A stretch of 64,000 bases of DNA from NCBI GenBank assembly GCA_006386115.1, contig VFIW01000002.1:496001-560000 (forward strand), given 5' to 3'. The notes beneath the pieces are model-generated. The model did no database searches, was not told where the DNA came from, and saw only the letters and a program-made list of their open reading frames with translations. The position numbers were made by a program, and so were the translations under genes. Shown here one piece after another: positions 8,490 to 49,180 of this stretch. Every line of letters starts with the position of its first letter. Positions within the stretch are counted from its first letter, which is position 1. The DNA comes from Globisporangium splendens. Its lineage: Eukaryota > Oomycota > Peronosporomycetes > Pythiales > Pythiaceae.

Positions 8490-8838
8490 TGTGGTGATTG
8501 GCACCTAGTTTAGATCGAACGGAGCAGTTGCAGTTGAGGTCCAGGGACCGTCACTCAGGGGACGTCTCTCGCGCAGGTATTCGGCAAGTGAGTCATTTGG
8601 GAAATGACTCACCTCAGGTAGTGAGTCATCGCTGCTTGTACTTGAACTGCGTATGTGTATGTGCATGTTGCATTTAGCGACACAAAGGCCCAGTGTGTTG
8701 TTACTCTCTCCCAAGCACTTGGTGCTCTGGGCCGACACTGCCATGGGGAACAGCAAGAGCTTTGGGATAATCGGCCGATAGGCATGCATGAATGACAACA
8801 TTGAACAATTTGCCTTTTATAGCACTGGTCGTGCCATA
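8490..8838 (+). repeat. 5' LTR of retrotransposon 1
   Basis: 349-bp direct repeat matching 13412-13760 except for one T/A and one C/T difference. It contains a short inverted motif, gagtcatttgggaaatgactc, near 8590. Confidence 0.96.
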
Positions 8839-8909
8839 AAGTCGACTTTGGTTACACACCAGCGCAAACACTGCGCAAACGATATCAAGCGAGAAAGAAC
8901 GAAGACGAG

Positions 8910-11453
8910 ATGCCGTCGTTCCAAGTGGACTCCGATGGTGACGTTGACATGTCCGTCAGCCACCCGGTGTTCGAGTTCATCAAGGCCCCACGCATCGCTT
9001 CGTGGGATCAATCGGCTTTGGTGAAGTGGCGTCGCGAGCGCCAGCAGTACGAGAGGAAGATCCGAGAGCGCTGTAGCGTTACCGGTGAAGCGTACGAAAA
9101 CGTGACCGTGAGCGTGATTGCGTCGGTCGACACGCGGATATTGAACGATCTAGCGCACTACGCATTCGAGAAGCAAGTGTCGTGCCTGACGGACAGCGAT
9201 ATCATCGACACCGTACGAAAGAAATGCTCGAGCCTTTTGAACGCGCATGCTCCGGACGTGGAAGAGCTCTTCAAGCAGCAACTGAGCATGAATCTCCGCG
9301 AGCGCGACATCGAAGCCCGCATCATGAAGTATTTCATGGATTTTGATTTGATCGTGGAGGAGAACGGATTGTCTGAGGTGCTTGGCAGTGAAGCACTGCT
9401 AGACACAGTTGACGACATGGCGAGGAAAAAGAGCCGCTGCAAGCTCCTGATTGACAACTTGGCTCCTGCCATGCTGAAGACGGACATTAAACGCCTTGTT
9501 CCGATCCAGCACCGTCAAGCAAAGACGAACGACGTGTCTTTGCGAAACCTGATCGTTCACAGGGCTACTGAGCAGCAACACTTCCACCTTCTCCAGCAGG
9601 AGAAGCCAGATGCAGTAAAGAAGACGCACGTCAGCGGGCAGAAAGAGGCCAAGCTAAAGGTTCCGTTTCAGCAAAAAGCCAAGCATGGCAGCAGTCTACC
9701 GCAGTCCGGGTGTTTGATCTGTAAGGGCTCGCACTGGGTGTCCGATTGCCCGTCCGCAACAGACGCCGAAAAGCTGGCTGCTCGTCAGAAGATGTGGAGC
9801 CGTTCGAAAGGAGTGACGAAGGTAAAAGCCGCAAAGCCTGTGACATTGGACACGGGTGATACTCTTACAATCAACGGGTTGTTGGAGGTGAACTACTGCG
9901 CCGACACCGGCGCAACGTTCAACATTCTGCCAAGTAAGGTCCTGGTCGAGCTTCTGGAGGCTGACAGTTCTTTCTCCACTGTGGGGCTCAAGGCACCACT
10001 CGCAATGAAGATGGCTGATGGACGAACGGTCACGTGTAAGGAGGAGTGCTCAGTCGACCTGCAGATCTCAACTGCTGCTGGCCCTGTGTGCATTCGCAAC
10101 GTGCACTGCCTCATCCTCGAAGGCGAAGATGAAGAGTTTCTTTTGGGGAACAACACTCTCAAGTCCATGGGGATCGACGTTGGTCAAATGATCGAGCAGC
10201 TTGCTGGAACGTCGGTCGACGGCGACGCGGGTGACGATATCCCTCCGGAAGATGATCTCGGCACTGATGTGGACAGTGAAGTGCAATTGTGCCTCGAGCG
10301 AATGTTTCGCGAAGCAGAGGCGAGTGGTTTCAAGCAAAAGCTGATGCCCATGCTGCGCGGTTTGGTGATGCAGTACCGAGATGTTTGGCGTGTGCGGATT
10401 GGACCTGATGCTGCTGCAAAGGTGGAACCCCTGAGAGTTACGATACAGGATGGGGCAATGCCGTTTCGGTGCAAGGCCAGGAAGTACCCCGAGCTTCAAA
10501 GTGCGTTTGTGAAGACGTACGTACAACAACTGGTCGAGTTCGGTTTTGTGCGGAAGAACAATCACAGCAAATGGTGTTGTGCAGTCGTACCAGTGCGGAA
10601 GCACGGAAGCCACGATGACTTTCGCATCACAAACGACTACCGCCCGATCAATCGCGTGTCTATTCCGATCGCTGGGTCCACTCCAAATCTGGCTGTGGTG
10701 ACTCAGAAGGTCAAAGGAGCTAAGCGATTTGGAAACTTTGATCTGTTCAAAGGATTCTGGCAAATGCCTCTTGCTGAAGAAAGTCAAGAGCTTTTCAGCT
10801 TTATGACTGAGGACGCGGTCTACACTCCGACTCGTGTACCTCAAGGAGCTGTTGACTCGGCTCTCCATTTCCAGACGCAAATGCAAGAAGTGTTTGGGGA
10901 CATGTTATACGACTCAGTCCTTATCTGGATTGATGACATTGCTCTCTTTGCGCAGGATGACGAGACGTACCTTCTAAAGCTGGAGCAGTTCTTTCGCATT
11001 CTCCGCGAGAGGAACCTGAAGCTCAGTGCGACTAAGAGCTCGCTGGTTCAGCAAGCAATCACATGGTGCGGCAAGGTCATTGATGGTGATGGCGTCCGAC
11101 ATGACCCAGCGCGTATCCAAGCTCTGCGAACGTTGCCGCTTCCAGTAACTGCCGCTGACTTGCAGTACCTTCTGTGCGCCACCAACTGGGTCCGTGACTC
11201 GTTGGTAGACTACGCGAGAGTGGTCGCGCCACTACAGCACTTTCTGGATTTGGTGTTGGTGAACAAAAGCCGAAAGAAGCGATATGCAGAGAGCATTGTC
11301 CTCAACTGGGACAGTGACGCTAAAGTCTCCTACAAGGCGCTAATCAATCTCCTCGCCAGCTCAACCAAGCTGGCCTTTCCTGATGCGACCTCCACAGTCT
11401 GCTTGTGTACCGATGCCTCCAATTTGGGTGGGCAGTGGTGGTTACTCAAGTGA
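8910..11453 (+). CDS. Gag-protease-reverse transcriptase polyprotein of retrotransposon 1 (first part)
   Basis: 847-residue frame. The N-terminal ~250 residues are Gag-like, followed by a CCHC zinc knuckle near residues 270-282 (CLICKGSHWVSDC). An aspartic protease active site lies near residue 330 (CADTGATFNIL). The reverse transcriptase spans roughly 505-720 with the catalytic box WIDDIALF near 672, a WIDD variant of the usual YxDD. The frame ends just inside RNase H at TDASNLG, where one base appears to be missing; the next frame continues the domain exactly. Start is the first Met after the leader. It would replicate the element in virus-like particles. Confidence 0.92.
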   Translation: MPSFQVDSDGDVDMSVSHPVFEFIKAPRIASWDQSALVKWRRERQQYERKIRERCSVTGEAYENVTVSVIASVDTRILNDLAHYAFEKQVSCLTDSDIIDTVRKKCSSLLNAHAPDVEELFKQQLSMNLRERDIEARIMKYFMDFDLIVEENGLSEVLGSEALLDTVDDMARKKSRCKLLIDNLAPAMLKTDIKRLVPIQHRQAKTNDVSLRNLIVHRATEQQHFHLLQQEKPDAVKKTHVSGQKEAKLKVPFQQKAKHGSSLPQSGCLICKGSHWVSDCPSATDAEKLAARQKMWSRSKGVTKVKAAKPVTLDTGDTLTINGLLEVNYCADTGATFNILPSKVLVELLEADSSFSTVGLKAPLAMKMADGRTVTCKEECSVDLQISTAAGPVCIRNVHCLILEGEDEEFLLGNNTLKSMGIDVGQMIEQLAGTSVDGDAGDDIPPEDDLGTDVDSEVQLCLERMFREAEASGFKQKLMPMLRGLVMQYRDVWRVRIGPDAAAKVEPLRVTIQDGAMPFRCKARKYPELQSAFVKTYVQQLVEFGFVRKNNHSKWCCAVVPVRKHGSHDDFRITNDYRPINRVSIPIAGSTPNLAVVTQKVKGAKRFGNFDLFKGFWQMPLAEESQELFSFMTEDAVYTPTRVPQGAVDSALHFQTQMQEVFGDMLYDSVLIWIDDIALFAQDDETYLLKLEQFFRILRERNLKLSATKSSLVQQAITWCGKVIDGDGVRHDPARIQALRTLPLPVTAADLQYLLCATNWVRDSLVDYARVVAPLQHFLDLVLVNKSRKKRYAESIVLNWDSDAKVSYKALINLLASSTKLAFPDATSTVCLCTDASNLGGQWWLLK

Positions 11454-13363
11454 AGATATGGAAATCGGAGGTGCCAATGCACAAGCAAGCTCACGAGCTG
11501 CTGATCTGCAAAGGGGGCACTTTCAAAGGTGCTCAGATCAATTGGAGCATCGTGGAAAAGGAGGCGTACCCCATAATCAGGGCGTGCACCGACTTGGAGT
11601 ATCTACTCCAGCGCCAGAATGGATTCAAGATCTTTTGTGATCACGCAAACCTGATCAAGATTTTCTGTCCATCCATGGAGCTGAAGCTGCACATCCGTGG
11701 GAAGCTGCAGAGGTGGGCAATGCGTCTCACTGGCTATCGTTACGACATTGAGCACATCAATGGAGGTGACAACCTCTGGGCGGATATTGTTTCTCGATGG
11801 GGACCAAGTAAAGATGCAATCGCGGCCGTGAATATGAAACTGCTCCGTACTTGCAATCCTGCCCAACTATCAACACTCCGCCCGCTGCAAGATGATCACT
11901 TTGAATGGCCAACTCGCGCTGAAGTGATTGGTGTCCAGAAGCGTTATGCGAACAGCGTAAGCGGAACAACTGAAGCAGCCGACGGTGCTATTCTTGTCGA
12001 CGGAAAACTTTGGATTCCTACGCAGGCTGTCGGTCTGTTGGAGCGCATCCTGGTAGTCACACACTGTGGAGTCCAGTCCCACCGGGGTGAACAAGTGATG
12101 ACCAACCAGCTACAGGCCATCTTTGCGATCGAGAACGTCGCACGCCGAGTGAAGGCGTTCGTGAGAGCTTGTTTGCTATGCAAGCACGTGAAGGGTGGTG
12201 TTGTGATCCAACGTCCGTGGGACGAACCGCAAGCTATTCCAACACGCAATGAAGTTCTCCACATGGATTTCCTGTTCATGGGCGAGACCTACGGACCCAC
12301 ACAATATGTATTGGTTCTGAAAGACGAACTGACGCATTACTGTGAGCTCGTGGCCTGCGACTCAGCCACGTCGGAAGTTGCAGCTGCTGCCGTCCTCGAT
12401 TGGGCTAAGCGCTTCGGTTATCCAAAGGTCTGGGTGTCCGACAATGGGTCCCATTTCAAGAATCAGACTCTGGAATGCCTGCGCGCTCGGGTTGGCGCGA
12501 AGCACCGATTTACCCCAGTCTACACGCCGTGGATTAACGGTACAGTCGAGCGACTGAACCGTGATATTCTGCAAGTAATGCGAATGTTGCTGTTGGAGAT
12601 GAAGCTGGACACAAAGAACTGGGAGTATTTGCTCCCTGTGGTGCAGCACAATCTGAACAACTCGCCGGTTGCCTCTCTTGCGAACAAAGCACCGGTGGAG
12701 CTGTTTACTGGGCTTGAAGCCTCGACCCCGTTGGATTCGTTGCTGCTCCCAGATGGGACTGCAACCGCCTCCAGCCTCAAGACCATAGACCTCACCAACG
12801 TCGAAGAGTCCCTTGCGAAACTGCGTTTGGATCTGCAGGCGATACATGCCAAAGTTGGTGACACGAAGGAACGCAAGCGGCTCTACCAAATGGCAATGAA
12901 GAAAGGACAAGTCTGTAACTTCTCTATTGGTGACTACGTGCTATGGTCGCGAGTTGACGCCCGCCTGGACGGAAACAAGTTGATGGTGCGCTGGCTTGGG
13001 CCATTTCGCGTTGCTGCTGTCCTCCCGCACTCATTCCTCATCCAGCACCTCATCACTGGCGAAGAGTATGATGTGCATGGAAGCCGTCTGAAGTTCTACA
13101 GCGACTCCAGTCTCGACGTCGATGAGGAGCTTCTGGAGCACGTCTCTCTCCAGGGGCTAAAACTGGGTGTTGCTGCGATCGTGGACCACAGGCGCAACAC
13201 CACAACGAAGAAGTGGGAACTTTTGATCTCGTGGCAAGGGTTACAGTCAATTGAAGACTCCTGGGAGCCTTTCACTACAATGCTGCGCGATATCCCAGTG
13301 AAAGTGCGCGAATACGCTGAGCAGCATGACGCACAACAGCTCATTCGACTGATGCCGAAGTAG
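11405..13363 (+). CDS. RNase H-integrase-chromodomain part of pol, retrotransposon 1
   Basis: Continuation of the polyprotein in the -1 frame, without a Met of its own at the join. It begins in RNase H (FGWAVVVTQ; later EYLLQ, ADIVSRWG). It continues with the integrase: HHCC zinc region (THCGVQSHRG...CLLCKHV) and the D-D-E core (MDFLFMG, VSDNGSHF, NGTVERLNRD). A C-terminal chromodomain follows (WELLISWQGLQSIEDSWEPF, about residues 598-620). The chromodomain is what places the element among chromoviruses, where it is thought to steer integration to particular chromatin. The lesion at about 11426-11432 separates this part from the upstream enzymes. Confidence 0.9.
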   Translation: MYRCLQFGWAVVVTQVKIWKSEVPMHKQAHELLICKGGTFKGAQINWSIVEKEAYPIIRACTDLEYLLQRQNGFKIFCDHANLIKIFCPSMELKLHIRGKLQRWAMRLTGYRYDIEHINGGDNLWADIVSRWGPSKDAIAAVNMKLLRTCNPAQLSTLRPLQDDHFEWPTRAEVIGVQKRYANSVSGTTEAADGAILVDGKLWIPTQAVGLLERILVVTHCGVQSHRGEQVMTNQLQAIFAIENVARRVKAFVRACLLCKHVKGGVVIQRPWDEPQAIPTRNEVLHMDFLFMGETYGPTQYVLVLKDELTHYCELVACDSATSEVAAAAVLDWAKRFGYPKVWVSDNGSHFKNQTLECLRARVGAKHRFTPVYTPWINGTVERLNRDILQVMRMLLLEMKLDTKNWEYLLPVVQHNLNNSPVASLANKAPVELFTGLEASTPLDSLLLPDGTATASSLKTIDLTNVEESLAKLRLDLQAIHAKVGDTKERKRLYQMAMKKGQVCNFSIGDYVLWSRVDARLDGNKLMVRWLGPFRVAAVLPHSFLIQHLITGEEYDVHGSRLKFYSDSSLDVDEELLEHVSLQGLKLGVAAIVDHRRNTTTKKWELLISWQGLQSIEDSWEPFTTMLRDIPVKVREYAEQHDAQQLIRLMPK

Positions 13364-13411
13364 CGCCCCCAAGTTCCATTCGCTCCGTCCGTGCTCAACT
13401 CTGGGGGGCAA

Positions 13412-13760
13412 TGTGGTGATTGGCACCTAGTTTAGATCGAACGGAGCAGTTGCAGTTGAGGTCCAGGGACCGTCACTCAGGGGACGTCACTCGCGCAGGT
13501 ATTCGGCAAGTGAGTCATTTGGGAAATGACTCACCTCAGGTAGTGAGTCATCGCTGCTTGTACTTGAACTGCGTATGTGTATGTGCATGTTGCATTTAGC
13601 GACACAAAGGCCCAGTGTGTTGTTACTCTCTTCCAAGCACTTGGTGCTCTGGGCCGACACTGCCATGGGGAACAGCAAGAGCTTTGGGATAATCGGCCGA
13701 TAGGCATGCATGAATGACAACATTGAACAATTTGCCTTTTATAGCACTGGTCGTGCCATA
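13412..13760 (+). repeat. 3' LTR of retrotransposon 1
   Basis: 349-bp partner of the 5' LTR, preceded by the purine-rich tract and followed by the target duplication TCGTG at 13761-13765 and the resumed HECT coding sequence. Confidence 0.96.
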
Positions 13761-14402: not shown

Positions 14403-14416
14403 AATCACTACTGAGA

Positions 14417-14664
14417 TGAACCGGTGGCGCGGTTCTAGTGGGGTAAGCTTCTGACCTCTACGCTGTTGATTGCGGGTTCGAGTCCCGTTCGGAGCGGGAT
14501 TTTCAACAAGCGGAAATTCGAAGTTCTTCGGGCCTAATCAGGGGTAGCGGTGGGACCCCATGGGGGGCAATAAGACCCAGCCCTGTAATTCCTACTCATC
14601 AATAAAAATCGGCTATTGTAGGTCACAACGATGAACCTAAATATACCTCACTTTCAAAATCAAA
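14417..14664 (+). mobile_element. SINE with tRNA-like head and LINE-derived 3' end
   Basis: A 248-bp insertion bounded by a perfect 14-bp direct repeat, aatcactactgaga, at 14403-14416 and 14665-14678. The head has RNA polymerase III type boxes: A-box-like ctagtggggtaag (14435-14447) and B box ggttcgagtcc (14475-14485). I could not fold the head into a good cloverleaf, so it is tRNA-derived rather than a tRNA gene. A central part of about 120 bp has no match I recognise. The last ~40 bp (14614-14651) follow the 3' terminus of the LINEs in this window (tattgtaggtcac..., gatgaacctaaatatacctc), then an A-rich tail. There is no coding capacity. Shared 3' end and equal-length target duplications imply mobilisation by the LINE reverse transcriptase. 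Confidence 0.85.
14435..14485 (+). promoter_or_regulatory. Internal Pol III promoter of the SINE (A and B boxes)
   Basis: A-box-like ctagtggggtaag at 14435-14447 and a near-consensus B box ggttcgagtcc at 14475-14485, spaced about as in tRNA genes. Confidence 0.65.
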
Positions 14665-14843
14665 AATCACTACTGAGACACATTTCGTAAAGAAACGTGA
14701 TCATCGTATTCGACGCATTCGCACACAAGAAAAGGAAGGCATTGGAGTTCAGATCAAAAGCGAAATCCAGTTTACTGGTACTGCAATCATATTTTCATTA
14801 TAAATACATACTTCAGCATTTCTCTCCTGCTTTTGCTGCGCTT

Positions 14844-18620: not shown

Positions 18621-21600
18621 TTTATTTTTTTTATTTTATTTTATAAGGTGAGGTATATTTAGGTTCATCGTCGTGACCTACAATATCCATTCTCCTACCT
18701 AATCTTCATTACGAATTTCATCTAGGAGTGCAAATGTGTCTATAGCGCGGATTGCACTAGATCACTTCTGAATGCTAAATAATCTTTGACCAGGATGGCA
18801 TGTTCTCTTGATCCTATGTGAGGCTGCCTTGTGTTGTCCAATGACCTTGGGTCTTCCGAGCTTCGCATAAGCCAATGCATGACGTCGTTGTCGAGATCCT
18901 GGGTGAGATTGTTGAAAGCAGCTCTTTGAGTTGGGAAGTGAACCTGCGTTGAGGTTCTGGTGTCAATGGCTAGGTTGGCGGCTGAGTCCGCCATCTTGTT
19001 GAAGGCACGGTAGTGATGGTACCATCCTCGGATGTCGATGCAATCCGCGAGTCGTCGACTTGTCTAGTATAAACGTGTCAATCGGTGCTGTCGAGGGGAC
19101 CGATGCATTCGCTGTTGGGAGATAATGAGTGCACTGTCTCCAATCACGTACAGCGGTTCGAAGTGACTGCGTTGGGCTTCTCGGAGTCCATGTATGAGAC
19201 CCCAGTACTCGGCAAAGTTGTTGGTCGTGTCCTTCCTGCTATACGCCATGCTCGCGGCCCAAATTAAACTGGCTGTGTGCGAGTCCTTGTGGACACGCGC
19301 GATAATGGATCCAGTCCCTCCTGGTCCTGGATTGCCGCGTGATCCACCATCGAAAAACAACAGGTAAACGCCGCGAGTATCACTTGGAGTCAAGGGGGTG
19401 GCGTCGGTTTGGCTGAGAAAGCAGTCGACATAGCCCTTGAGAACTGCCGCAACCGTGTGACCGTCCGAGTCTCCAGCTTGCGCTTCAGCGAGTCGTGTGA
19501 GGTTTCGCATTCCTGCCTCTAATCTGGTCATCATGATCGCCATCTCAGAAGTCGATTCGATTGGATCCGAATCCATGCGTCGCAGATGCGCACACCAAAT
19601 GGCTTGTATGAGCGACGCGCTCATATATCGCCACAGCATGTGTGCGACGGGATAGAGGTGATCTTGGAGATGTTCATTGGAGAACTTGTGTCCGATAATG
19701 TGTCTCTTGATCGTGGTCCATGCACGCCTTGGAGTATGTGGTAGATCCAGACTGAAGATCCAGATTGCGGGGTCGTGACCAGGAGTGATTCCGATCTTCG
19801 CCCATAGCGCATAAAAGTAGTTCCACACGAGTCTGGCTTTCGGACACTCCCAGAGTAGATGTTGAACAGAAGATTGGACAACTTGGGAACATTCAGGATT
19901 CGAGCAGGATAGATCAGCTTTCTCATAGTTCCACAAGGAGAGTCGGTTGGCTTTCAGCCGGAGAAGAGTCTGAGCCGTATAAACTGTAATCCCTGGGATG
20001 TTGTGTAATTCGCTCCATTGGATTAATTGCAGTCCTGGCCACAGAGATCCTGCTGTGTGGACAGCTTTGTTGACTGCTGCATCTCGAGTATCTTTGCCAA
20101 TTTGTGTCCTCGTTGCTGCAACTTGTTGCCGATAGAAAGATATGGTCGTATTGTATCGTCCGTTGCCACCCCATAGTTGCACGATTCTTGTGAAAAGTGG
20201 ATGTGCATGGAACGACACCTTCTGCCCGTTCAAGTCTCTTGTTGCCATGACGTCACAGTCCATTGCAGAGTGGACTGTATGCGTAGCTTTGACTAGGGTC
20301 GTGTCGACGTGGGTCAGAGTTGCTTCACTGGTGTGCAGATGCCATTCGTGGTTATAATGACGTTGCCCGTTGTACAGTCGAAGCACATTTGTTTGCTGTG
20401 GTCGATACAGAAGCTGTGGGAAGTTGGATACCAACGTAGCACATAACCGCTCGAGCGCTCGAATATATGGCCGGGAGAATCCGGAGATTCCACATGTTGG
20501 GATGAAGTTAAGCACTCCTGGTCTTATCCACTCCCATCGAAGTATGTCACCCAGTTGTGCCGTTCCGACTGATAATGATGTGTGAGCAAGCTTGTATGGG
20601 GAACCGTTGGAATCAAGAAGCCACCCATCTGCAGTCGAGGTCATGTATGGCGACCATTCTGCACAGAATGTCCCACGTAGCTTTCGTCCTTCAGCGATGA
20701 TACCTGGAAGCCTGTCAGACATTTTAGAGCTGAGGTCGATCTGGAACACATCGCCGTCCCATTGAGTCTGCATAATTGTCGACTTGAAGTGCTCGTAACA
20801 CCAACGTACATTATCACGTTCTCTGGGATCATAGGGTCGAGAATGGAGCGACGCACATAATGCTGCGCCAGTTGTCCACATGTTATCACGAAGCTGGAGT
20901 GGCCGCCTTGGAATTGCATCGAGCGGCGTGATGTACATCGAAGAAGCCCTTGTGTTGTGCAGCAAGATTTCCCCGACGACCTGATCGATGTGAGAGGTTG
21001 TGATTGCCCATTTGGAGACTGCTGTGGCACTCATCGTCATCAGCTCCGTTCTGATGTTGGGTGCTGACAAGCCTCCATTCATTTTTTTGAGCTCAGCTTG
21101 TTCTTCCTTCATCCACGGTTTCGCAGGCTTACCATTCCTTGAGCCCCAGATAAATTGTTTCACTAGGTCGTGTAGCTGATTGACAATAGCCGTAGAGGGC
21201 CAGGAGTGCCTGGCCACATAAAGCACTTTGGGTATGATGACGGCACTGGCAATTGCTGCGCGTTGGGCGACAGAGTGAGTTTTGAGACGCGCAAGTCGAA
21301 GTCTGACACGTAAGGCTTGGATGCACTTTGACCAGTTACTTGCATTCGAAGGCGTTTGTCCGACTTGGATGCCGAGGTAGCGGCAATGTTCCTCACGTTG
21401 TAGCACATGAATGTCACTGACTGACTCTTCGGTGGAGCTGTATTCCTTGTTCAACGGTAATACTGCAGATTTGTGCCGATTGACTCGAAGCCCAGAAGCT
21501 GCTCCATATTTGTCCAGGATTGCAAACACGGCATTAATATCCTTGGGATCACTAAGATAAATGGTCGTGTCGTCTGCGTATCCTCCAAGTCTGACTTCAG

Positions 21601-24018
21601 TTGCGCATCCTGCTGCCTGGAGTTCAACGCCGTGTATTTCGTCACTCTCTTCGATTTTCCGATAAAAAACCTCTAACGCCAAGATGGAGAGAAGAGGGGC
21701 CAGCGGACATCCTTGACGAATTCCGGATGTTACGTTGTACTTTCTCGACAGGAAACCGTTGACAATGAACTTGTAAGTGGTTTGAGAGTGTAACACCTTC
21801 ACTAAGTGTACGAACTTCAATGGGAATCCAAGATGCTGGAGCGCTTGTGCCAGAAAGCTGCGATCGAGTGAATCATAGGCTTTAGCAAATCAAGGAGCAA
21901 CGCGATCGCTCTGGACATGGCGGGGTCGCTTGTGGCCCGCTGTTGCGCAGCCAATAACACATCGATCGTAGTCGGGATTGCTCGCCCTGGAACGAAACCA
22001 GCTTGCATGTGATGGATAAGCCAAGGGAGCACCGTTCGTAATCTGGTTGCAAATATCCGTGTGAATATTTTGTAATCAGAGTTGAGGAGTGCGATTGGCC
22101 TGTAGTCCAGCGGCGATGCAGCAGAGACGGACTTTTTATGCAGTGAATATGGGCTTCACTGAACGAACTTGGTAGAACGCATTCGGGTATCCACAAGTTG
22201 AAAAGTCGCTCGAATAGACCGGTAATCTCGTCGCAGTGGTCTTTGTACCAGTCGTTGCCGAGTTCGTCAGGACCGTGAGCTTTGCTTCTCTTGCGTTTCT
22301 TCACAGCCTGTTTAATCTCACTCGAATTGATCGGTTTGAGCAGGAAGCCTAATCTGTCCGACGGAGGAATAGCTGTTCCTGGATCAAGGATTTGATCGAT
22401 GTCAGTTTGCAGAGTGGGCGCCTGTTGCATGATTGATTTCCATCCTTCTCCCATGTCGTCGGCAAGTTCTCGTGAACGCATGGGTCCGTAAGTCGCTGTG
22501 CCACCGAGTGTGAAGATAGTGTTGTCAAGGAACTTGGTCGAGATACGCTTGTAGAAGGATTTGCTCGTTTTTCGTTGATGATGCATGTGCTCTCGAAAAA
22601 TGCGGTCCCGTTTTGAAGCCTGCCACTTAGATTTGCATTCTGCAATGGCACGACGGATACTCGCGGCGGTGGTAAGAAACTCTTGCGACAACTCCACGTT
22701 TTGATCACCCACCGCTCCACCAGAGTGATCGAGCATCTGCACTTCTGATTCTGAGAGGCGTCGTTGCAACCTCTGGATTTTCTTCTTGTATCCTTGATTC
22801 AATCTGGCGAAATACGATTTTTTAGCTTCAAGGTACCTAATCCTGAGCGCGATCTTGGCTTCATCCCACCAATTTGCTGTGGCCAGAGCATAATCGCGAG
22901 GCGAAGAGGAACGTCCACGTAATTCATCAAGTTGATCATGAGCTTTTTCGAAGAAATCTTTTCCAATACTCGCCGCATGCGCCGCTGCATTTTTCGGAAG
23001 TGGATAGACAACTCGAGGTTTCTTGCTTTGGATCACCTTGTCAGGAGCAGCTACCCGGATCGTGACTCCATTGTGATCGGAGAACGGACCAGCTACGCTT
23101 TGGTAGACGCTGCGAACCCAGTCGAGATGGTCGTTGCTGCAATACCATCGGTCGAGCCTACTGCTGGCACTGCCGCCTGAAGGCAGTGTATAGTAGTAGG
23201 TGTGATGCTGTCGATGGAATGCTTTGACGTCTCGTGTGTCCGTGGCGCGAAGAGCATCATCCTCGAGGGTGTCAACAAGATCCAATTTCTGGAGCAGTTT
23301 CTTCAATTCCCTGGAATCGTGCACTTTGTTGTGGTTGTTGTGAGACCTGTCTGCCGTCTGGTTGAGAGTGCAATTAAAGTCTCCACCGCACAGAATGGGT
23401 CCATCATGTGACGAGAGGAGACCTGGTAGTGCTCTGTAGAAAGCTTCCCTTGCAAATACGGTAGAAGGAGCGTAGATGTTGAGAAGTAACACCGTTTCAC
23501 CACGCAACGTCACCGTAGCTGCCATCCAGTGCGCATTCCACTGATCCTGCTTATATGGAGCCAGAGTAGGTATGCACGAATAGGGATTCAACAAGATCGC
23601 CACTCCTCCTTTGCGCTCGGTGGAAGCTGACCAGAGAGAAAGTCTGGGATCCGACTCTTCTGATGGTTCCTGAAAAATCCAACTTCGACGAAATCTGGAT
23701 TGCATTGATGCCACTTCGGTCTCCAGGACGTGCGTTTCTTGGAGAAAGACAATGTCCAATGATCCCGAATCATCAGTCTGTCGAAAATGTGAAAACCACG
23801 CGTTCAGATTGGCGTCGGATTTGGAGAACCCCATCACATTCTGTGTGTGGAATCCAACAGTTAGCTCATGGCGAGCACTGACTGTCGCACTGCGCCTTCT
23901 GGGTCGGTGGTTGTCACGACGAGCTTGGGTTGTGGGCTGATATGGTCGCAACGGTAGTCCATCGCCGGAATACGTTGATGTGCCTTGTATTCCACGCTGT
24001 ACTTCCGCCGGAGAGACA
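18621..24018 (-). mobile_element. LINE-B: large LINE copy abutting inverted repeat IR1
   Basis: Minus-strand LINE of about 5.4 kb holding almost all of ORF2. From its 5' end: a short N-terminal part (SPAEVQRGIQG), an APE-type endonuclease (LLLNIYAPS, GGDFNCTLNQ, SDHNGVTIRV), then reverse transcriptase (FAKAYDSLDRS region, [23 protein letters not shown]), zinc-knuckle-like and RNase H domains. Single-base losses near 21890 (TTTT to TTT) and 22130 (A6 to A5) break the frame; 19064-21820 remains open for 918 residues. The 3' end carries a TTTTA-type tail (18621-18640, + strand reading). No target duplication can be identified because the 5' end stops exactly where the IR1 arm begins. Confidence 0.92.
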
Positions 24019-24367
24019 GTGTGATGCTGTCGATGGAATGCTTTGACGTCTCGTGTGTCCGTGGTGCGAAGAGCATCATCCTCGAGGGTACCAACAAGAT
24101 TCAATTTCTGGAGCAGTTTCTTCAATTCCCTGGAATCGTGCACTTTGTTGTGGTTGTTGTGAGACCTGTCTGCCATCTGGTTGAGAGTGCAATTAAAGTC
24201 TCCACAGCACAGAATGGGTCCATCATGTGACGAGAGGAGACCTGATAGTGCTCTGTAGAAAGCTTCCCTTGCAAATACAGTAGAAGGAGCGTATATGTTG
24301 AGAAGTAACACCGTTTCACCACGCAACGTCACCGTAGCTGCCATCCAGTGCGCATTCCACTGATCCT
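24019..24367 (-). mobile_element. LINE fragment inside IR1 left arm
   Basis: 349 bp of LINE ORF2 endonuclease region, the mirror image of the start of LINE-C at 32390-32738. It is joined to the subtilisin fragment by the same junction (gagctgaacaacct then aggatcag), and at 24019 switches abruptly to LINE-B, so that a partial endonuclease is fused in frame to a second one. Confidence 0.9.
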
Positions 24368-24648
24368 AGGTTGTTCAGCTCGGTCTGCGAGGTTTGCGCA
24401 TGCTGCTCGAGGCGGTCGACAAGGCTCGTGATTCGGTCACCACGCGTTGCAAACTCGACTTCCTGGACATTCGCGAGCACCGCTTTCGTCGAGCCTCGCA
24501 GCGTCACGGTGAGGTTTACAGTCCCTTGCTGCCGTAGCGTGCGATGGACGGCCGCGTCGACTTGAGGCGACAGAGCGACTGCAGTCGACCATTCGGTGGC
24601 AATGCAGGCAGACAATAGGAGGAGCGATGCCGTCTTGATAGACACCAT
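24368..24648 (-). pseudogene. Subtilisin-like protease, 5' fragment only (IR1 left arm)
   Basis: 93 codons of a secreted serine protease: signal peptide (ASLLLLSACIATEWSTAVA) and the beginning of the inhibitory prodomain, then cut at the LINE junction. It is the mirror copy of 32109-32389. The protease domain is absent from this side, because the duplicated arm ends inside the LINE. Probably still has the promoter motif at 24699-24716. Confidence 0.9.
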
Positions 24649-25660
24649 CGCTGCAGGTCCAGGAAAGGCTTGGGTTGTACTCGGCTGTTGGGGGCAGTGG
24701 CGAAATGGAGACTGAGAGCGTCAATGGCGTAGGCGCTGCTGGTGGAGGGCTTTCGAAACTTGACAAAAGTTGTACTCTCTGATACCTTCTCCTTCTCCCG
24801 CCATGTTGAACACCATCATGAGGGAACCAGCGTGTCGTCGCATATTGTCGTTGATGTTTCCATGGTTAGTGGAATTCATAGGCAGGGATAGGAGCAAGTC
24901 ATGCTGAGGTTTGTGTGTGCGAATACTTTTTTTTATACAGCTATGCGGCCAAAGTGCAAGAAGGTACCGGCGCTCGTCTACAGAACACAACGGAATGAAC
25001 ACTGTCAATAGAGAGACACACTGACATTGTGCTTCCGACACTGCCAATAGCTCACCACTGACCGAGGCAGAAAGTTCACAGAATAACAGCTTCTTCATCG
25101 CATGTTTACGAAATTACTACACTCTATTTGAAGTTGAAAAGTCTGTTATGTTCACAAAGAGAATGCACCTTTTCTGGCGTCGCTGGCGATGCGGCTCCAC
25201 CAATTCTCTTGTAGTTGGACTGTTGCATTTGGCTTCGCTGTGAGACCTCAAGCTGCCTGTAAGTTTGCAAGCCTTACCTGGACATGGCAGGTGCTCCCTC
25301 GTGGCAGTCACGCGGGCTCTCTCTACTTATCCTGAAGCGCGCCGACCAACCTGATGCCAGTCTTGAGACCTTGGTGAAGTCGTGATGAGAAACTAAAGCC
25401 AAAGCACAGGCTGATCTACGAACGGTTTCAAGTTGTGCCAAGCGTCTGCCCCTGGGTATAATTCTGTCTCACTAGACGCCTGATTATCACGCGTTCTACT
25501 GTAGTGAAAAGAGAAACACACAAAAACGAACAAGGCATGGCAAGATACAGGTGTGATATTGACAAGTTCTCAAAAGAACAAAACACAAAAAACAAACAAA
25601 ATGCTACTGATATGCAGATAGTTTAGCATTCAAGTGGGATGAAGTGTCAACTGGGATGAT
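24649..25660. other. Intergenic, IR1 left arm
   Basis: 1.0 kb between the GH7 3' end and the subtilisin 5' fragment, mirror of 31097-32108. No supported gene. It holds the subtilisin core promoter (24699-24716) and GH7 3' sequences. Confidence 0.5.
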
Positions 25661-27320
25661 CTATGCGCCGCGTCTGGTGCATTTCTTGGACGTGTTCTTG
25701 GGGGTCGTAGTCGTTGGGGCCGTAGTCACTGGGGCTGGGGTCGATTCGGCTTCAGAGCTGGCGTCGGAGCCGCTCACACTAGGAGTCGTAGAGCTGGAGT
25801 CTGCGTCAGCGTCGGCCGATCCAGTCACAGAGCCGGTGTCCGAGTCGGATTCGCTCGAACCGGAGGCCGTCGCATCGGAGCTGGATTCGGTCGAATCGGA
25901 GACCTCCGTCGAGGCGGATCCAGACTGGGGCAAACCGGGGACCGTCGAGCCGATGTCTCCGACACGCACGTTCGAGAACTTGACAGTGGCATCCGCGGAC
26001 TGCGCCTCCACTGTCGCTGGCACACCGGTGGTCGTAGCACACGTGCCACGCGCCACACCAGGCTCTTTTGGACTGCGGTCGAGCGGGTAGGTGCTGTCTA
26101 ACCACAAACATTGCGCTGCGTGGTCCGTCCAGAGACTCATGGTCAAGACGACTCCCTTCTTGAGCGCCTTGGTCATTTGCGCGAGTCCGCCCTTGGTCTT
26201 GTGGTCATCCGGGTCCTTGAATGCGGTCTTGGACTGTGAACAGACCTTGTCGGTGATCGAGCTGATAGGGTCGATGCCAGCAATCTTGATCTTCGGGTTC
26301 TCGATGACCTTGCCATTCTGCTTGAAGAAGCGCTTGATCTCGGCGAGGTTGCCGTTGGCGGTCTTGTCGCTCGTGATGAATTGCGTGGTGACGGTGAATG
26401 GTTTGGTGGTGTCGATCTGGAACGACGCTCCCGGGCCGAAGAAAGTTGTGTTGCCCATGCGGTACGGGTTGTTATCGCAGCCATCTTCATCGCAGACACC
26501 CTTGTATCGGTTGGCGGATCCGAAGCCACACTGGGCATCCGTGGTGCATCGCGTCTGAGACTCGACGGTGCAAGGGTGCGACGTGTAGGCGCTACTGATG
26601 CTGTTGGCCTCCCAGATGTCCATCTCCATGCAGCACGAGCCGTACTTGCCGGTGCCGCCGTTCGGGTCGGTGGCGCTCGGCTTCCAGTTGGCAACGTTGG
26701 CTTCACCGTTGATGAACTTGACATCGTGTGGGCACTGCGCGTCACAGTATCCCGTGCCGTACGCGGCTCCAGCCTTGTTGCCTGGGTACTTGGACTTGCC
26801 ACCGTCGGCGTCCATTTGCACGAAGTAGAGCGCGCCGTTCAAGCCACACGGGAGCTTGGACACGTCGACGTCGAAGGAGAACTCTTGGTTGAGGAGCTTG
26901 TAGAGCTTGTACTTGGTGTCGTCCTGCATGACGTAGAGACGCGATCCGACGTTGGTGCTGTACTGTCCCTTGGTGACGAGCTTGAGCGAGAGGTCCGATC
27001 CGGAGGCGGAGATACCGTAGGTTCCTTCATAATTGGCACCTTCGAGAGCACAGTTGGGCACAGGTGGCTCCATCCGGGCAAATGGAGGTGTCCCACTTGT
27101 TGCCGGTGTAGCAGTTGGTGGAGGTTCCGACCTTGTGTGTCCAGCGCCAGTTGGCGTCCAGCACGATCTTGGTGGCTTCGGAGACGCAGCCTCCCTTAGT
27201 GGTGCACGTCTCGGTCGGGTACGATGGGTGCACTTCCGCGTCGCTGGTTCCGACTTGTTGTGCGAGAGCTGGGACGGCGGTGAGCACCGCGAGGAAGGCG
27301 ACAATGGCTGCGATCTTCAT
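25661..27320 (-). pseudogene. GH7 cellobiohydrolase, frameshifted copy (IR1 left arm)
   Basis: Mirror copy of the gene at 29435-31096. It differs by loss of two bases near 27058 (tgcctccaac on the right, tgcccaac here), which shifts the frame around residue 88, before the catalytic region. The rest of the GH7 domain and the Ser/Thr-rich tail remain open in the shifted frame down to 25661. Start codon at 27320 and signal peptide are intact, so only a short secreted fragment would be made. A base-calling or assembly error in a near-identical repeat is an alternative. Confidence 0.9.
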
Positions 27321-29434: not shown

Positions 29435-31096
29435 ATGAAGATCGCAGCCATTGTCGCCTTCCTCGCGGTGCTCACCGCCGTCCCAGCTCTCGCACAACAA
29501 GTCGGAACCAGCGACGCGGAAGTGCACCCATCGTACCCGACCGAGACGTGCACCACTAAGGGAGGCTGCGTCTCCGAAGCCACCAAGATCGTGCTGGACG
29601 CCAACTGGCGCTGGACACACAAGGTCGGAACCTCCACCAACTGCTACACCGGCAACAAGTGGGACACCTCCATTTGCCCGGATGGAGCCACCTGTGCCTC
29701 CAACTGTGCTCTCGAAGGTGCCAATTATGAAGGAACCTACGGTATCTCCGCCTCCGGATCGGACCTCTCGCTCAAGCTCGTCACCAAGGGACAGTACAGC
29801 ACCAACGTCGGATCGCGTCTCTACGTCATGCAGGACGACACCAAGTACAAGCTCTACAAGCTCCTCAACCAAGAGTTCTCCTTCGACGTCGACGTGTCCA
29901 AGCTCCCGTGTGGCTTGAACGGCGCGCTCTACTTCGTGCAAATGGACGCCGACGGTGGCAAGTCCAAGTACCCAGGCAACAAGGCTGGAGCCGCGTACGG
30001 CACGGGATACTGTGACGCGCAGTGCCCACACGATGTCAAGTTCATCAACGGTGAAGCCAACGTTGCCAACTGGAAGCCGAGCGCCACCGACCCGAACGGC
30101 GGCACCGGCAAGTACGGCTCGTGCTGCATGGAGATGGACATCTGGGAGGCCAACAGCATCAGTAGCGCCTACACGTCGCACCCTTGCACCGTCGAGTCTC
30201 AGACGCGATGCACCACGGATGCCCAGTGTGGCTTCGGATCCGCCAACCGATACAAGGGTGTCTGCGATGAAGATGGCTGCGATAACAACCCGTACCGCAT
30301 GGGCAACACAACTTTCTTCGGCCCGGGAGCGTCGTTCCAGATCGACACCACCAAACCATTCACCGTCACCACGCAATTCATCACGAGCGACAAGACCGCC
30401 AACGGCAACCTCGCCGAGATCAAGCGCTTCTTCAAGCAGAATGGCAAGGTCATCGAGAACCCGAAGATCAAGATTGCTGGCATCGACCCTATCAGCTCGA
30501 TCACCGACAAGGTCTGTTCACAGTCCAAGACCGCATTCAAGGACCCGGATGACCACAAGACCAAGGGCGGACTCGCGCAAATGACCAAGGCGCTCAAGAA
30601 GGGAGTCGTCTTGACCATGAGTCTCTGGACGGACCACGCAGCGCAATGTTTGTGGTTAGACAGCACCTACCCGCTCGACCGCAGTCCAAAAGAGCCTGGT
30701 GTGGCGCGTGGCACGTGTGCTACGACCACCGGTGTGCCAGCGACAGTGGAGGCGCAGTCCGCGGATGCCACTGTCAAGTTCTCGAACGTGCGTGTCGGAG
30801 ACATCGGCTCGACGGTCCCCGGTTTGCCCCAGTCTGGATCCGCCTCGACGGAGGTCTCCGATTCGACCGAATCCAGCTCCGATGCGACGGCCTCCGGTTC
30901 GAGCGAATCCGACTCGGACACCGGCTCTGTGACTGGATCGGCCGACGCTGACGCAGACTCCAGCTCTACGACTCCTAGTGTGAGCGGCTCCGACGCCAGC
31001 TCTGAAGCCGAATCGACCCCAGCCCCAGTGACTACGGCCCCAACGACTACGACCCCCAAGAACACGTCCAAGAAATGCACCAGACGCGGCGCATAG
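29435..31096 (+). CDS. Secreted GH7 cellobiohydrolase-like cellulase
   Basis: 553-residue glycoside hydrolase family 7 enzyme, expected to cleave crystalline cellulose from reducing chain ends outside the cell. Residues 1-20 are a signal peptide ([20 protein letters not shown]). The catalytic motif EMDIWEAN at about residue 231 supplies the nucleophile and acid/base glutamates plus the helper aspartate (E-x-D-x-x-E). Other family hallmarks are [24 protein letters not shown], many paired cysteines, and [10 protein letters not shown]. From about residue 455 a Ser/Thr/Asp/Pro-rich tail of about 95 residues replaces the CBM1 found in many fungal enzymes; it ends KKCTRRGA with no binding module visible. 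No introns. It is the intact copy of a head-to-head pair in IR1, followed by a subtilisin gene, so two secreted hydrolases lie side by side. Confidence 0.95.
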
Positions 31097-32108
31097 ATCA
31101 TCCCAGTTGACACTTCATCCCACTTGAATGCTAAACTATCTGCATATCAGTAGCATTTTGTTTGTTTTTTGTGTTTTGTTCTTTTGAGAACTTGTCAATA
31201 TCACACCTGTATCTTGCCATGCCTTGTTCGTTTTTGTGTGTTTCTCTTTTCACTACAGTAGAACGCGTGATAATCAGGCGTCTAGTGAGACAGAATTATA
31301 CCCAGGGGCAGACGCTTGGCACAACTTGAAACCGTTCGTAGATCAGCCTGTGCTTTGGCTTTAGTTTCTCATCACGACTTCACCAAGGTCTCAAGACTGG
31401 CATCAGGTTGGTCGGCGCGCTTCAGGATAAGTAGAGAGAGCCCGCGTGACTGCCACGAGGGAGCACCTGCCATGTCCAGGTAAGGCTTGCAAACTTACAG
31501 GCAGCTTGAGGTCTCACAGCGAAGCCAAATGCAACAGTCCAACTACAAGAGAATTGGTGGAGCCGCATCGCCAGCGACGCCAGAAAAGGTGCATTCTCTT
31601 TGTGAACATAACAGACTTTTCAACTTCAAATAGAGTGTAGTAATTTCGTAAACATGCGATGAAGAAGCTGTTATTCTGTGAACTTTCTGCCTCGGTCAGT
31701 GGTGAGCTATTGGCAGTGTCGGAAGCACAATGTCAGTGTGTCTCTCTATTGACAGTGTTCATTCCGTTGTGTTCTGTAGACGAGCGCCGGTACCTTCTTG
31801 CACTTTGGCCGCATAGCTGTATAAAAAAAAGTATTCGCACACACAAACCTCAGCATGACTTGCTCCTATCCCTGCCTATGAATTCCACTAACCATGGAAA
31901 CATCAACGACAATATGCGACGACACGCTGGTTCCCTCATGATGGTGTTCAACATGGCGGGAGAAGGAGAAGGTATCAGAGAGTACAACTTTTGTCAAGTT
32001 TCGAAAGCCCTCCACCAGCAGCGCCTACGCCATTGACGCTCTCAGTCTCCATTTCGCCACTGCCCCCAACAGCCGAGTACAACCCAAGCCTTTCCTGGAC
32101 CTGCAGCG
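31097..32108. other. Intergenic, GH7 to subtilisin (IR1 right arm)
   Basis: 1.0 kb with no supported gene; contains GH7 3' sequences and the subtilisin core promoter at 32041-32058. Confidence 0.5.
32041..32058 (+). promoter_or_regulatory. Oomycete Inr/FPR core promoter of subtilisin 1
   Basis: ctcagtct fits the oomycete initiator YTCANTYY exactly and is followed by catttcgcc, one mismatch from the flanking promoter element CAWTTTNYY. It lies 68 bp before the start codon. Mirror copy at 24699-24716. Confidence 0.6.
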
Positions 32109-33907
32109 ATGGTGTCTATCAAGACGGCATCGCTCCTCCTATTGTCTGCCTGCATTGCCACCGAATGGTCGACTGCAGTCGCTCTGTCGCCTCAAGTCGA
32201 CGCGGCCGTCCATCGCACGCTACGGCAGCAAGGGACTGTAAACCTCACCGTGACGCTGCGAGGCTCGACGAAAGCGGTGCTCGCGAATGTCCAGGAAGTC
32301 GAGTTTGCAACGCGTGGTGACCGAATCACGAGCCTTGTCGACCGCCTCGAGCAGCATGCGCAAACCTCGCAGACCGAGCTGAACAACCTAGGATCAGTGG
32401 AATGCGCACTGGATGGCAGCTACGGTGACGTTGCGTGGTGAAACGGTGTTACTTCTCAACATATACGCTCCTTCTACTGTATTTGCAAGGGAAGCTTTCT
32501 ACAGAGCACTATCAGGTCTCCTCTCGTCACATGATGGACCCATTCTGTGTGGTGGAGACTTTAATTGCACTCTCAACCAGATGGCAGACAGGTCTCACAA
32601 CAACCACAACAAAGTGCACGATTCCAGGGAATTGAAGAAACTGCTCCAGAAATTGAATCTTGTTGGTACCCTCGAGGATGATGCTCTTCGCACCACGGAC
32701 ACACGAGACGTCAAAGCATTCCATCGACAGCATCACACCTACTACTATACACTGCCTTCAGGTGGCAGTGCCAGCAGTAGGCTCGACCGATGGTACTGCA
32801 GCAATGACCATCTCGACTGGGTTCGCAGCGTATACCAAAGCGTAGTTGGTCCGTTCTCCGATCACAATGGAGTCACGATCCGGGTAGCTGCTCCTGACAA
32901 GGTGATCCAAAGCAAGAAACCTCGAGTTGTCTATCCACTTCCGAAGAATGCAGCGGCGCACGCGGCGATTATTGGAAAAGATTTCTTCGAAAAAGTCCAT
33001 GATCAACTTGATGAATTACGTGGACGTTACTCTTCGCCTCGTGATTATGCTCTGGCCACAGCAAATTGGTGGGATGAAGCCAAGATCGCGCTCAGGATCA
33101 GGTACCTTGAAGCTAAAAAATCGTACTTCGCCAGATTGAATCAAGGATACAAGAAGAAAATCCAGAGGTTGCAACGACGCCTCTCAGAATCGGAAGCGCA
33201 GATGCTCGGTCACTCTGGTGGAGCGGTGGGTGATCATAACGTGGAGTTGTCGCAAGAGTTTCTTACCACCGCCACGAGTATTCGTCGTGCCATTGCAGAA
33301 TGCAAATCGAAGTGGCAGGCTTCGAAACGGGACCGCATTTTTCGGGAGCACATGCATCATGAACGAAAAACGAGCAAATCCTTCTACAAGCGTATCTCGA
33401 CCAAGTTCCTTGACAACACTATCTTCGCACTCGGTGGCACAGCTACTTACGGACCCATGCGTTCACGAGAACTTGCTGACGACATGGGAGAAGGATGGAA
33501 ATCAATCATGCAACAGGCGCCCACTCTGCAAACTGACATCGATCAAATCCTTGATCCAGGAACAGCTATTCCTCCGTCGGACAGATTAGGCTTCCTGCTC
33601 AAACCGATCGATTCGAGTGAAATTAAACAGGCTGTGAAGAAATGCAAGAGAGGCAAAGCTCACGGTCCTGACGAACTCGGCAACGACTGGTACAGAGACC
33701 ACTGTGACGAGATTACCGGTCTATTCGAGCGACTTTTCAACTTGTGGATACCCGAATGCGTTCTGCCAAGTTCGTTCAGTGAAGCCCATATTCACTGCAT
33801 AAAAAAGTCCGTCTCTGCTGCATCGCCGCTGGAATACAGGCCAATCGCACTCCTCAACTCTGATTACAAAATATTCACACGGATATTTTGCAACCAGATT
33901 ACGAACT

Positions 33908-33969
33908 GTTTATTGTAGGTCACGAAGATGAACCTAAATATACCTCACCTTATAAAGATAAAGATAAAG
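33908..33969 (+). mobile_element. 62-bp LINE-family 3'-end insertion in LINE-C
   Basis: Only the terminal part of the family 3' UTR plus an ATAAAG-type tail, flanked by attacgaact (33898-33907 and 33970-33979). An extremely 5'-truncated insertion; a SINE tail is an alternative source. Confidence 0.85.
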
Positions 33970-36915
33970 ATTACGAACTATGCTCCCTTGGCTTATCCAT
34001 CACATGCAAGCTGGTTTCGTTCCAGGGCGAGCAATCCCAACTACGATCGATGTGCTATTGGCTGCACAACAGCGGGCCACGAGCGACCCCGCCATGTCCA
34101 GAGCGATCGCGTTGCTCCTTGATTTTGCTAAAGCCTATGATTCACTCGATCGCAGCTTTCTGGCACAAGCGCTCCAGCATCTTGGATTCCCATTGAAGTT
34201 CGTACACTTAGTGAAGGTGTTACACTCTCAAACCACTTACAAGTTCATTGTCAACGGTTTCCTGTCGAGAAAGTACAACGTAACATCCGGAATTCGTCAA
34301 GGATGTCCGCTGGCCCCTCTTCTCTTCATCTTGGCGTTAGAGGTTCTTTATCGGAAAATCGAAGAGAGTGACGAAATACACGGCGTTGAACTCCAGGCAG
34401 CAGGATGCGCAACTGAAGTCAGACTTGGAGGATACGCAGACGACACGACCATTTATCTTAGCGATCCCAAGGATATTAACGCCGTGTTTGCAATCCTGGA
34501 CAAATATGGAGCAGCTTCTGGGCTTCGAGTCAATCGGCACAAATCTGCAGTATTACCGCTGAACAAGGAATATAGCTCCACCGAAGAGTCAGTCAGTGAC
34601 ATTCATGTGCTACAACGCGAGGAACATTGCCGCTACCTCGGCATCCAAGTCGGACAAACGCCTTCGAATGCAAGTAACTGGTCCAAGTGCATCCAAGCCT
34701 TACGTGTCAGACTTCGACTTGCGCGTCTCAAAACTCACTCTGTCGCCCAACGCGCAGCAATTGCCAGTGCCGTCATCATACCCAAAGTGCTTTACGTGGC
34801 CAGGCACTCCTGGCCCTCTACGGCTATTGTCAATCAGCTACACGACCTAGTGAAACAATTTGTCTGGGGCTCAAGGAACGGTAAGCCTGCGAAACCGTGG
34901 ATGAAGGAAGAACAAGCTGAACTCAAAAAAATGAATGGAGGCTTGTCAGTACCCAACATCAGAACTGAGCTGATGACGATGAGTGCCACAGCAGTCTCCA
35001 AATGGGCAATCACAACCTCTCACATCGATCAGGTCATCGGGGAAATCTTGCTGTACAACACAAGGGCTTCTTCGACGTACATCACGCCGCTCGATGCAAT
35101 TCCAAGGCGGCCACCCCAGCTTCGTGATAACATGTGGACAACTGGCGCAGCATTGTGTGCGTCGCTCCATTCTCGACCCTATGAGCCCAGAGAACGTGAC
35201 AATGTACGTTGGTGTTACGAGCACTTCAAGTCGACAATTGTGCAGACTCAATGGGACGGCGATGTGTTCCAGATCGACCTCAGCTCTAAAATGTCTGACA
35301 GGCTTCCAGGTATCATCGCTGAAGGACGAAAGCTACGCGGGACATTCTGTGCAGAATGGCTGCCATACATGACCTCGACTGCAGATGGGTGGCTTCTTGA
35401 TTCCAACGGCTCCCCTCACAAGCTTGCTCACACATCATTATCAGTTGGAACAGCACAACTGGGTGACATACTTCGATGGGAGTGGATAAGACCAGGAGTG
35501 CTTAACTTCATCCCAACATGTGGAATCTCCAGATTCTCCCGGCCGTCTATTCGAGCGCTCGAGCGGTTATGTGCTACGTTGGTATCCAACTTCCCACAGC
35601 TTCTGTATCGACCACAGCAAACAAATGTGCTTCGGCTGTACAACGGGCAACGTCATTACAACCACGAATGGCATCTGCACACCAGCGAAGCAACTCTGAC
35701 CCACGTCGACACGACCCTAGTCAAAGCTACGCATACAGTCCACTCCGCAATGGACTGTGACATCATGGCAACAAGAGACTTGAACGGGCAGAAGGTGTCG
35801 TTCCATGCACATCCACGTTTCACAAGAATCGTGCAACTATGGGGTGGCAACGGACGATACAATACCGCCAGATCTTTCTATCGGCAACAAGTTGCAGCAA
35901 CGAGGACACAAATTGGCAAAGATACTCGAGATGCAGCAGTCAACAAAGCTGTCCATACAGCAGGATCTCTGTGGCCAGGACTGCAATTAATCCAATGGAG
36001 CGAATTACACAACATCCCAGGGATTACAGTTTATACAGCCCAGACTCTTCTCCGGCTGAAAGCCAACCGACTCTCCATGTGGAACTAGGAGAAAGCTGAT
36101 CTGTCCTGCTCGAATCCCGAATGCTCCCAAGTTGTCCAATCTTCTGTTCAACATCTATTCTGGGAGTGTCCGAAAGCCAAACTGGTGTGGAACTACTTTT
36201 ATGCGCTATGGGCGAAGATCGGAATCACTCCTGGTCACGACCCCGCAATCTGGATCTTCAGTCTGGATCTACCACATACTCCAAGGCGTGCATGGACCAC
36301 GATCAAGAGACACATTATCGGACACAAGTTCTCCAATGAACATCTCCAAGATCATCTCTATTCCGTCGCACACATGCTGTGGCGATATATGAGCGCGTCG
36401 CTCATACATGCCATTTGGTGTGCGCATCTGCGACGCATGGATTCGGATCCAATCGAATCGACTGCTGAGATGGCGATCATGATGACCAGATTAGAGGCAG
36501 GAATGCGAAACCTCACACGACTCGCTGAAGCGCAAGCTGGAGGCTCGGACGGTCACACGGTTGCAGCAGTTCTCAAGGCATATGTCGACTGCTTTCTCAG
36601 CCAAACCGACGCCATCCCCTTGACTCCAAGTGATACTCGCGGCGTTTACCTGTTGTTTTTCGATGGTGGATCACGCGGCAATCCAGGACCAGGAGGGACT
36701 GGATCCATTATCGTGCGTGTCCACAAGGACTCGCACACAGCCAGTTTAATTTGGGCCGCGAGCATGGCGTATAGCAGGAAGGACACGACCAACAACTTTG
36801 CCGAGTACTGGGGTCTCATACACGGACTCCGAGAAGCCCAACGCAGTCACTTCGAACCGTTGTACGTGATTGGAGACAGTGCACTCATTATCTCCCAACA
36901 GCGAATGCATCGGTC

Positions 36916-37025
36916 ACATTTACACTCCTAGATGAAATTCGCAATGAAGATTAGGTAGGAGAATGGATATTGTAGGTCACGAAGATGAACCTAAATATAC
37001 CTCACCTTATAAAGATAAAGATAAA
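36916..37025 (+). mobile_element. 110-bp LINE 3'-end insertion in the RNase H region of LINE-C
   Basis: LINE 3' UTR and tail inserted into the RNase H coding part, flanked by gaatgcatcggtc (36903-36915 and 37026-37038). The same insertion at the same site is present in LINE-D (62162-62271). Confidence 0.92.
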
Positions 37026-41701: not shown

Positions 41702-41761
41702 GATGGTCGGTGCGGGGTAGTTGATTCGAAGTGCAACGGAGGCGGCAAATTGAAGAATGCC
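40273..41761 (-). repeat. IR2, left arm (1489 bp)
   Basis: Reverse complement of 43200-44688 with a single silent difference seen by eye (GAC/GAT in the signal-peptide region). It covers 60 bp upstream of the subtilisin 2 start and 1429 bp of coding sequence. Confidence 0.95.
41744..41754 (-). promoter_or_regulatory. Oomycete Inr/FPR core promoter of subtilisin 2
   Basis: ttcaatttgcc on the minus strand: ttcaattt fits the initiator YTCANTYY and caatttgcc fits CAWTTTNYY, overlapping as in known oomycete promoters. It sits 43 bp before the ATG. Confidence 0.75.
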
Positions 41762-49128: not shown

Positions 49129-49180
49129 TTTCTTTTTTTTTGGTAGATTACGCTACGGAAAGTCCATTAGCTCCCTTACA

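Follow-up and report, generated by a model that had tools for sequence, protein, structure and literature searches.

A 248-bp insertion in the genome of the oomycete Globisporangium splendens is very probably a tRNA-type SINE that carries, as its 3' end, the recognition hairpin of a local LINE. The original prediction proposed such a LINE/SINE partnership from the 64-kb stretch of DNA analysed here ("the window"), and two results support it. Target-site duplications (score at least 8) flank 36 of the 40 SINE copies tested, against 1 of 480 control pairings that set the left flank of one copy against the right flank of another, and in a representative of SINE-A, the older of two subfamilies, the tail matches that of the partner, LINE1, at 42 of 42 bases. 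By analogy with known pairs, as described in the available part of their survey (PMC3747384), we infer that the two elements form a stringent-type SINE/LINE pair: the anatomy is directly visible, while use of the promoter and copying in trans would follow the precedent of those pairs.

The insertion with its 14-bp duplication had been placed at 14403-14678, and these coordinates proved exact. All of its parts lie on the forward strand. Duplications of 14 bp each, at 14403-14416 (AATCACTACTGAGA) and 14665-14678, bracket a SINE copy of the young subfamily B (14417-14664). Its head contains a putative A-box-like stretch (GGTTCTAGTGG, 14431-14441), which by eye agrees with the A-box consensus at 9 of 11 positions, and a B box (GGTTCGAGTCC, 14475-14485) that matches the Pol III consensus GGTTCGANTCC perfectly and sits in T-arm-like surroundings. 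A TTTT run directly 3' of the head (14500-14503) is a possible weak Pol III stop. The body of the element (14504-14610), which has no second match anywhere in the window, is followed by the shared hairpin (GGCTATTGTAGGTCACAACGATGAACCTAAATATACC, 14611-14647) and by a terminal repeat of the (TCAAAA)n type (14651-14664).

The SINE tail is what ties the element to LINE1. The tail of the window SINE matches LINE tails at 8 further sites of the window, with 88.6-93.2% identity over 41-55 bp. The LINE insertions there include a long LINE1 copy on the minus strand (18634-24400, the extent of our query; tail 18634-18688) and a tail-only LINE insertion within another LINE on the plus strand (33911-33962), flanked by a 12-bp duplication. 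Over the 42 bases ATGGATATTG...CTCA, the window copy of SINE-B agrees with LINE1 at 38 positions; the next-best LINE family, Y, reaches 35 of 42 for SINE-A and 34 of 42 for SINE-B. Allowing up to 3 mismatches, the tail pattern occurs at 563 places in the assembly (283 + 280) and its reversed control at none, and 518 places remain when the pattern is extended by the LINE sequence in front of it. Among the first 30 of the 563 places, 27 are LINE copies, 2 are SINEs and one, L060, is half of a split subfamily-A copy. By its encoded domains, LINE1 is an APE-type LINE with RNase H: the reverse transcriptase (RVT_1, 84.9 bits) and RNase H (RVT_3, 32.7 bits) score above their cut-offs, and the endonuclease (Exo_endo_phos) scores 22.1 bits, slightly below its cut-off of 24.5. 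Further rows, probably of LINE1 and with 53-54% identity to family Y, have open reading frames of ~1,850 codons, a figure to which we give little weight because one of them, C42, shows an internal stop.

Duplications accompany the LINE insertions as well, as the original prediction had claimed with lengths of 13-14 bp. A scripted scan of 39 LINE rows, allowing at most 1 mismatch, recovered 12 distinct duplications of 12-20 bp; 15 of the rows have their 5' end beyond the stretch and 1 repeats an insertion. Apparent duplications at L070 and w38467 were tail self-matches and were excluded. Among the 9 remaining rows, L074 has a duplication recognized by eye and w-47498 one read separately, and none was found in the other 7.

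The part common to SINE and LINE, predicted to be about 40 bp of LINE 3' terminus and now delimited to 37-42 nt, coincides almost exactly with a single predicted RNA hairpin, GGAUAUUGUAGGUCA-CGACGA-UGAACCUAAAUAUACC, plus UCA. Its predicted stem has 14 pairs (GGAUAUUg UAGGUCA...UGaACCUAAAUAUaCC). A relative of the reverse transcriptase led to three further LINE families, Y, Z and Q, which carry a homologous stretch behind the ORF. RNAalifold folds seven tails (LINE1, both SINE subfamilies, Y, Z and Q) into one common hairpin. Both sides have changed at 3 of the 14 pairs: pair 13-29 from G-C to A-U in Z, pair 14-28 from G-C to U-A in Q, and pair 17-24 from A-U to U-A in Y and Z and to G-C in Q. 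At 5 of the 14 pairs the exceptions are broken pairs only. Across these seven short rows, which represent four independent LINE families, 93.9% of cells are paired. Shuffles give 86.9%, with 0 of 500 as high as the real tails, and slid registers at most 50%; three or more double-change pairs arise in 4 of 500 shuffles, and 28 of 500 equal or exceed the real tails in the number of pair types. Folded singly against shuffles, the sequences are not clearly better than chance, with z from -1.1 to -2.4 for LINE1 and the SINEs, +0.5 for Y, -0.3 for Z and -1.4 for Q. The 3' end of Z is confirmed by the differently flanked copies L128, L129, L131 and L132, among which the length of its (ATC)n repeat varies; this variation suggests slippage when reverse transcription starts. 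The true termini of Y and Q rest on homology, because the two Y ends share one flank and the Q end is a single copy. We conclude that the LINE has a conserved 3' hairpin, as a predicted fold that covariation supports.

With homologous hairpins in Y and Z, a genuine SINE might have been moved by one of these families, or by an enzyme that accepts any A-rich end, leaving the LINE1 tail as a passive relic. By eye, the SINE-B terminal sequence CACCTTCAAAATCAAA is indeed closer to that of Y (CACCTTCATCAAAA) than to that of LINE1 (CACCTTATAAAG). We nevertheless regard this as unlikely, given that the representative SINE tails match LINE1 best and that the Y/Z tail pattern occurs at 18 exact places (13 Y and 5 Z, plus two LINE1-like), against 518 LINE1 tails counted at up to 3 mismatches. 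On contig C186 (193 kb), a LINE-dense region holds 9 of the 13 exact family Y tails.

At the other end of the element, the Pol III-type head of the original prediction stood in part. A perfect B box is present in 27 of the 30 further copies whose head is complete (a count that omits the window copy, its duplicate L009, and L039), and the TTTT run, as GGATTTTC, follows the head in 26 of the 30; the run could act as an early Pol III stop. Recognition of the head as a tRNA did not follow: ARAGORN reported no tRNA in it, and Rfam none at its gathering cut-off, giving a sub-threshold, tRNA-like match of 15 bits. Nor was a tRNA parent found when the head was compared with the tRNA genes of 30 loci, some of which are mitochondrial. 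If the SINE were instead a non-autonomous LINE derivative, transcribed by Pol II and carrying a fortuitous B box, a missing tRNA parent and a TTTT run behind the head would be easily accommodated. The perfect B box shared by so many copies, its tRNA-like T-arm context and the lack of anything LINE-like ahead of the SINE tail speak against such an origin, which we judge quite improbable.

As expected of an independent SINE, the head is multi-copy and not confined to a single place. A search of the 53.3-Mb G. splendens assembly (195 contigs) with the head only, omitting the tail, returned 40 places out of 42 candidates, and adding L045 and L120-L123, which are short copies, brought the places inspected to 45. 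These represent about 40 distinct insertions, because four places repeat insertions already counted and L029 has the same left flank as L031. Rows dropped as duplicates were L009 (the window copy), L039 (L038), L121 (L120) and L125 (L047); L042, a split copy without its own tail, was left out of the 40-copy duplication count, and L027b is a LINE tail. The 36 distinct duplications have a median length of 15 bp (range 11-22). The four misses among the 40 copies are L018, L025, L029 and L044, in which a duplication was looked for and none was found; to judge from the common flank, L029 is probably the same insertion as L031, and leaving it out gives 36 of 39. Copies are either full-length or 5'-truncated, the shortest (L120 and L123, 57-58 bp) being barely longer than the tail, and duplications also flank the truncated copies L036, L043, L045-L047, L120, L122 and L123. 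Such a mixture is as expected for target-primed reverse transcription. The element is thus short (~248 bp), non-coding, dispersed, multi-copy and flanked by target duplications, as SINEs are. An explanation without an independent SINE, in which a LINE was rearranged or a SINE-LINE insertion nested, is hardly credible: nested LINE fragments are common in the window, but in those 36 copies a single unit, made up of head and tail or of what 5' truncation has left of them, lies between the duplications, and the head joins the LINE tail and in none of the copies inspected LINE coding sequence. Of the two findings that the original prediction had named as refuting it, a single-copy head and a head joined only to LINE coding sequence, neither was seen.

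The copies fall into two subfamilies that differ by 0.102. Within subfamily B, which includes the window copy, 25 copies differ pairwise by 0.040 on average, and most of its copies end in CTCAC(C/T)TTCAAAATCAAA. The older subfamily A ends in CTCAATAAA, and its copies differ from one another by 0.071 on average; its members are L038, L040, L041 and L044 within the count, and also L046 and L042/L060. LINE 3' ends differ by 0.031 on average (21 copies), a spread comparable to that of SINE-B.

Beyond the hairpin, the partners diverge. SINE-B ends in (TCAAAA)n, LINE1 in (ATAAAG)n, Z in (ATC)n and Q in (CAA)n, so that SINE and LINE1 do not have the same terminal repeat; one inspected LINE copy, L124, has a SINE-type end. 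In the example pairs of the survey, as far as its available text goes, the terminal repeat is common to both partners (PMC3747384); we do not take a shared repeat as strictly defining for stringent pairs. The insertion sites of SINE and LINE show a similar preference, with C before the duplication at 21 of 36 SINE sites and 7 of 13 LINE sites and A at +2 at 22 of 36 and 11 of 13, respectively, a likeness partly confounded by A-rich tails and drawn from 13 hand-picked LINE sites.

A natural transplant of the tail offers a separate view of its role. On the plus strand, a short LINE tail is nested in LINE ORF2 at 36915-37019 with the duplication GAATGCATCGGTC, and the same nested insert occurs at 62161-62265, in a long plus-strand copy (57242-62265); the LINE copies that hold it at these two sites are both long. 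On the minus strand, another LINE copy stops at this nested tail: its 3' end lies at 47457-47555, the remainder at 47555-47980 and 54188-55169, and its duplication GCTAAGGAGCATCT at 47440-47453 and 55171-55184, the pieces 47457-47980 and 54188-55169 lying around an LTR element. A LINE copy with its own duplication thus ends at the nested tail, and copying of the LINE RNA therefore appears to have begun at the transplanted tail there. To judge from this sequence arrangement, a transplanted tail can define a LINE 3' end; it is also possible that the LINE RNA itself ended at the nested tail, through cleavage or polyadenylation. More tentatively, and ranking the idea somewhat below probable, we suggest that throughout a lineage of oomycete LINEs one ancient, covarying 3' hairpin may serve as a ticket for reverse transcription independently of the terminal repeat, so that the repeat would drift freely and a bare tail of ~40-100 nt would make an RNA mobile, whether a SINE or a LINE RNA with a nested tail.

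The window holds other large repeats. The LTR retrotransposon that splits the tail-stopped LINE copy spans ~47981-54187, with a large ORF at 49121-53845 and end repeats that show 99% identity across the 300 bases compared. A second LTR retrotransposon probably lies at ~8490-13711, with gag-pol-like ORFs recognized by eye and flanking repeats also 99% identical over 300 bases. A 3-kb inverted duplication with 100% identity (24019-27057 and 29700-32738), which could be real or an assembly effect, carries a cellobiohydrolase-like ORF (by eye) twice, and a 1.5-kb inverted duplication with 99% identity (40260-41764 and 43197-44701) carries a subtilisin-like protease ORF (by eye).

For the SINE and its partner LINE1, we propose the following cycle. 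The internal promoter would drive transcription of the SINE, yielding an RNA that ends in a 14-pair hairpin resembling that of the LINE RNA, a likeness plain in the sequence, with the fold itself predicted and supported by covariation. The LINE reverse transcriptase would bind this hairpin in trans and, where the LINE endonuclease has nicked the target, would begin copying within the short, A-rich terminal repeat. Insertion would follow with a duplication of 11-22 bp and sometimes with 5' truncation, as for LINEs, and this footprint is what the copies display.

Among the literature matches listed, mostly titles and the starts of abstracts, with subscription journals outside the scope, there is no SINE/LINE tail pair from an oomycete. 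The abstract of the 2005 paper on infSINE, the SINEs of Phytophthora infestans, reportedly names no LINE partner. These oomycete SINEs, grouped into 15 families in the available part of PMC5063351, are set apart from ours by description and not by sequence. So are those of Peronospora effusa, tRNA-bearing, SINE-like repeats that, unlike ours, occur as clustered units, one of 717 bp (available part of PMC11540230). The available text of PMC11540230 and PMC11139960 names no partner LINE for oomycete SINEs. The survey of SINE/LINE pairs lists animals, fungi, amoebae and green plants, and the words oomycete, Phytophthora and stramenopile are absent from its text as available (PMC3747384).

The closest parallels are found elsewhere. 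The same survey lists 58 SINEs in stringent-type pairs, including UnaSINE1/UnaL2 of eel, and in what is available of it the pairs of this type resemble ours in a SINE 3' end identical to the 3' end of a LINE from the same genome, a hairpin near the 3' end, a simple-repeat terminus and target duplications (PMC3747384). Our pair differs from them in its oomycete host, in a shared part of only 37-42 nt and in its differing terminal repeats; compared with functionally assayed pairs, it is known from sequence alone. SINEs with LINE 3' ends also occur in other filamentous microbes, as AfuSINE2-1a/I-1_AF of Aspergillus fumigatus (PMC5063351) and Mg-SINE/MGR583 (PMC3747384), but the hosts are true fungi, the LINEs are different and no covarying hairpin is described in the accessible parts of these sources. 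ZmSINE2/LINE1-1_ZM of maize likewise shares a short 3' hairpin with compensatory changes, but belongs to a plant L1 lineage in which poly(A) ends predominate, and has another hairpin sequence (available part of PMC3747384). Within the literature searched, the G. splendens pair is apparently a known kind of system unreported in oomycetes. If our reading is true, tail-based template recognition extends to the stramenopiles, and the four related LINE families of this genome provide a compact set for direct testing of hairpin recognition.
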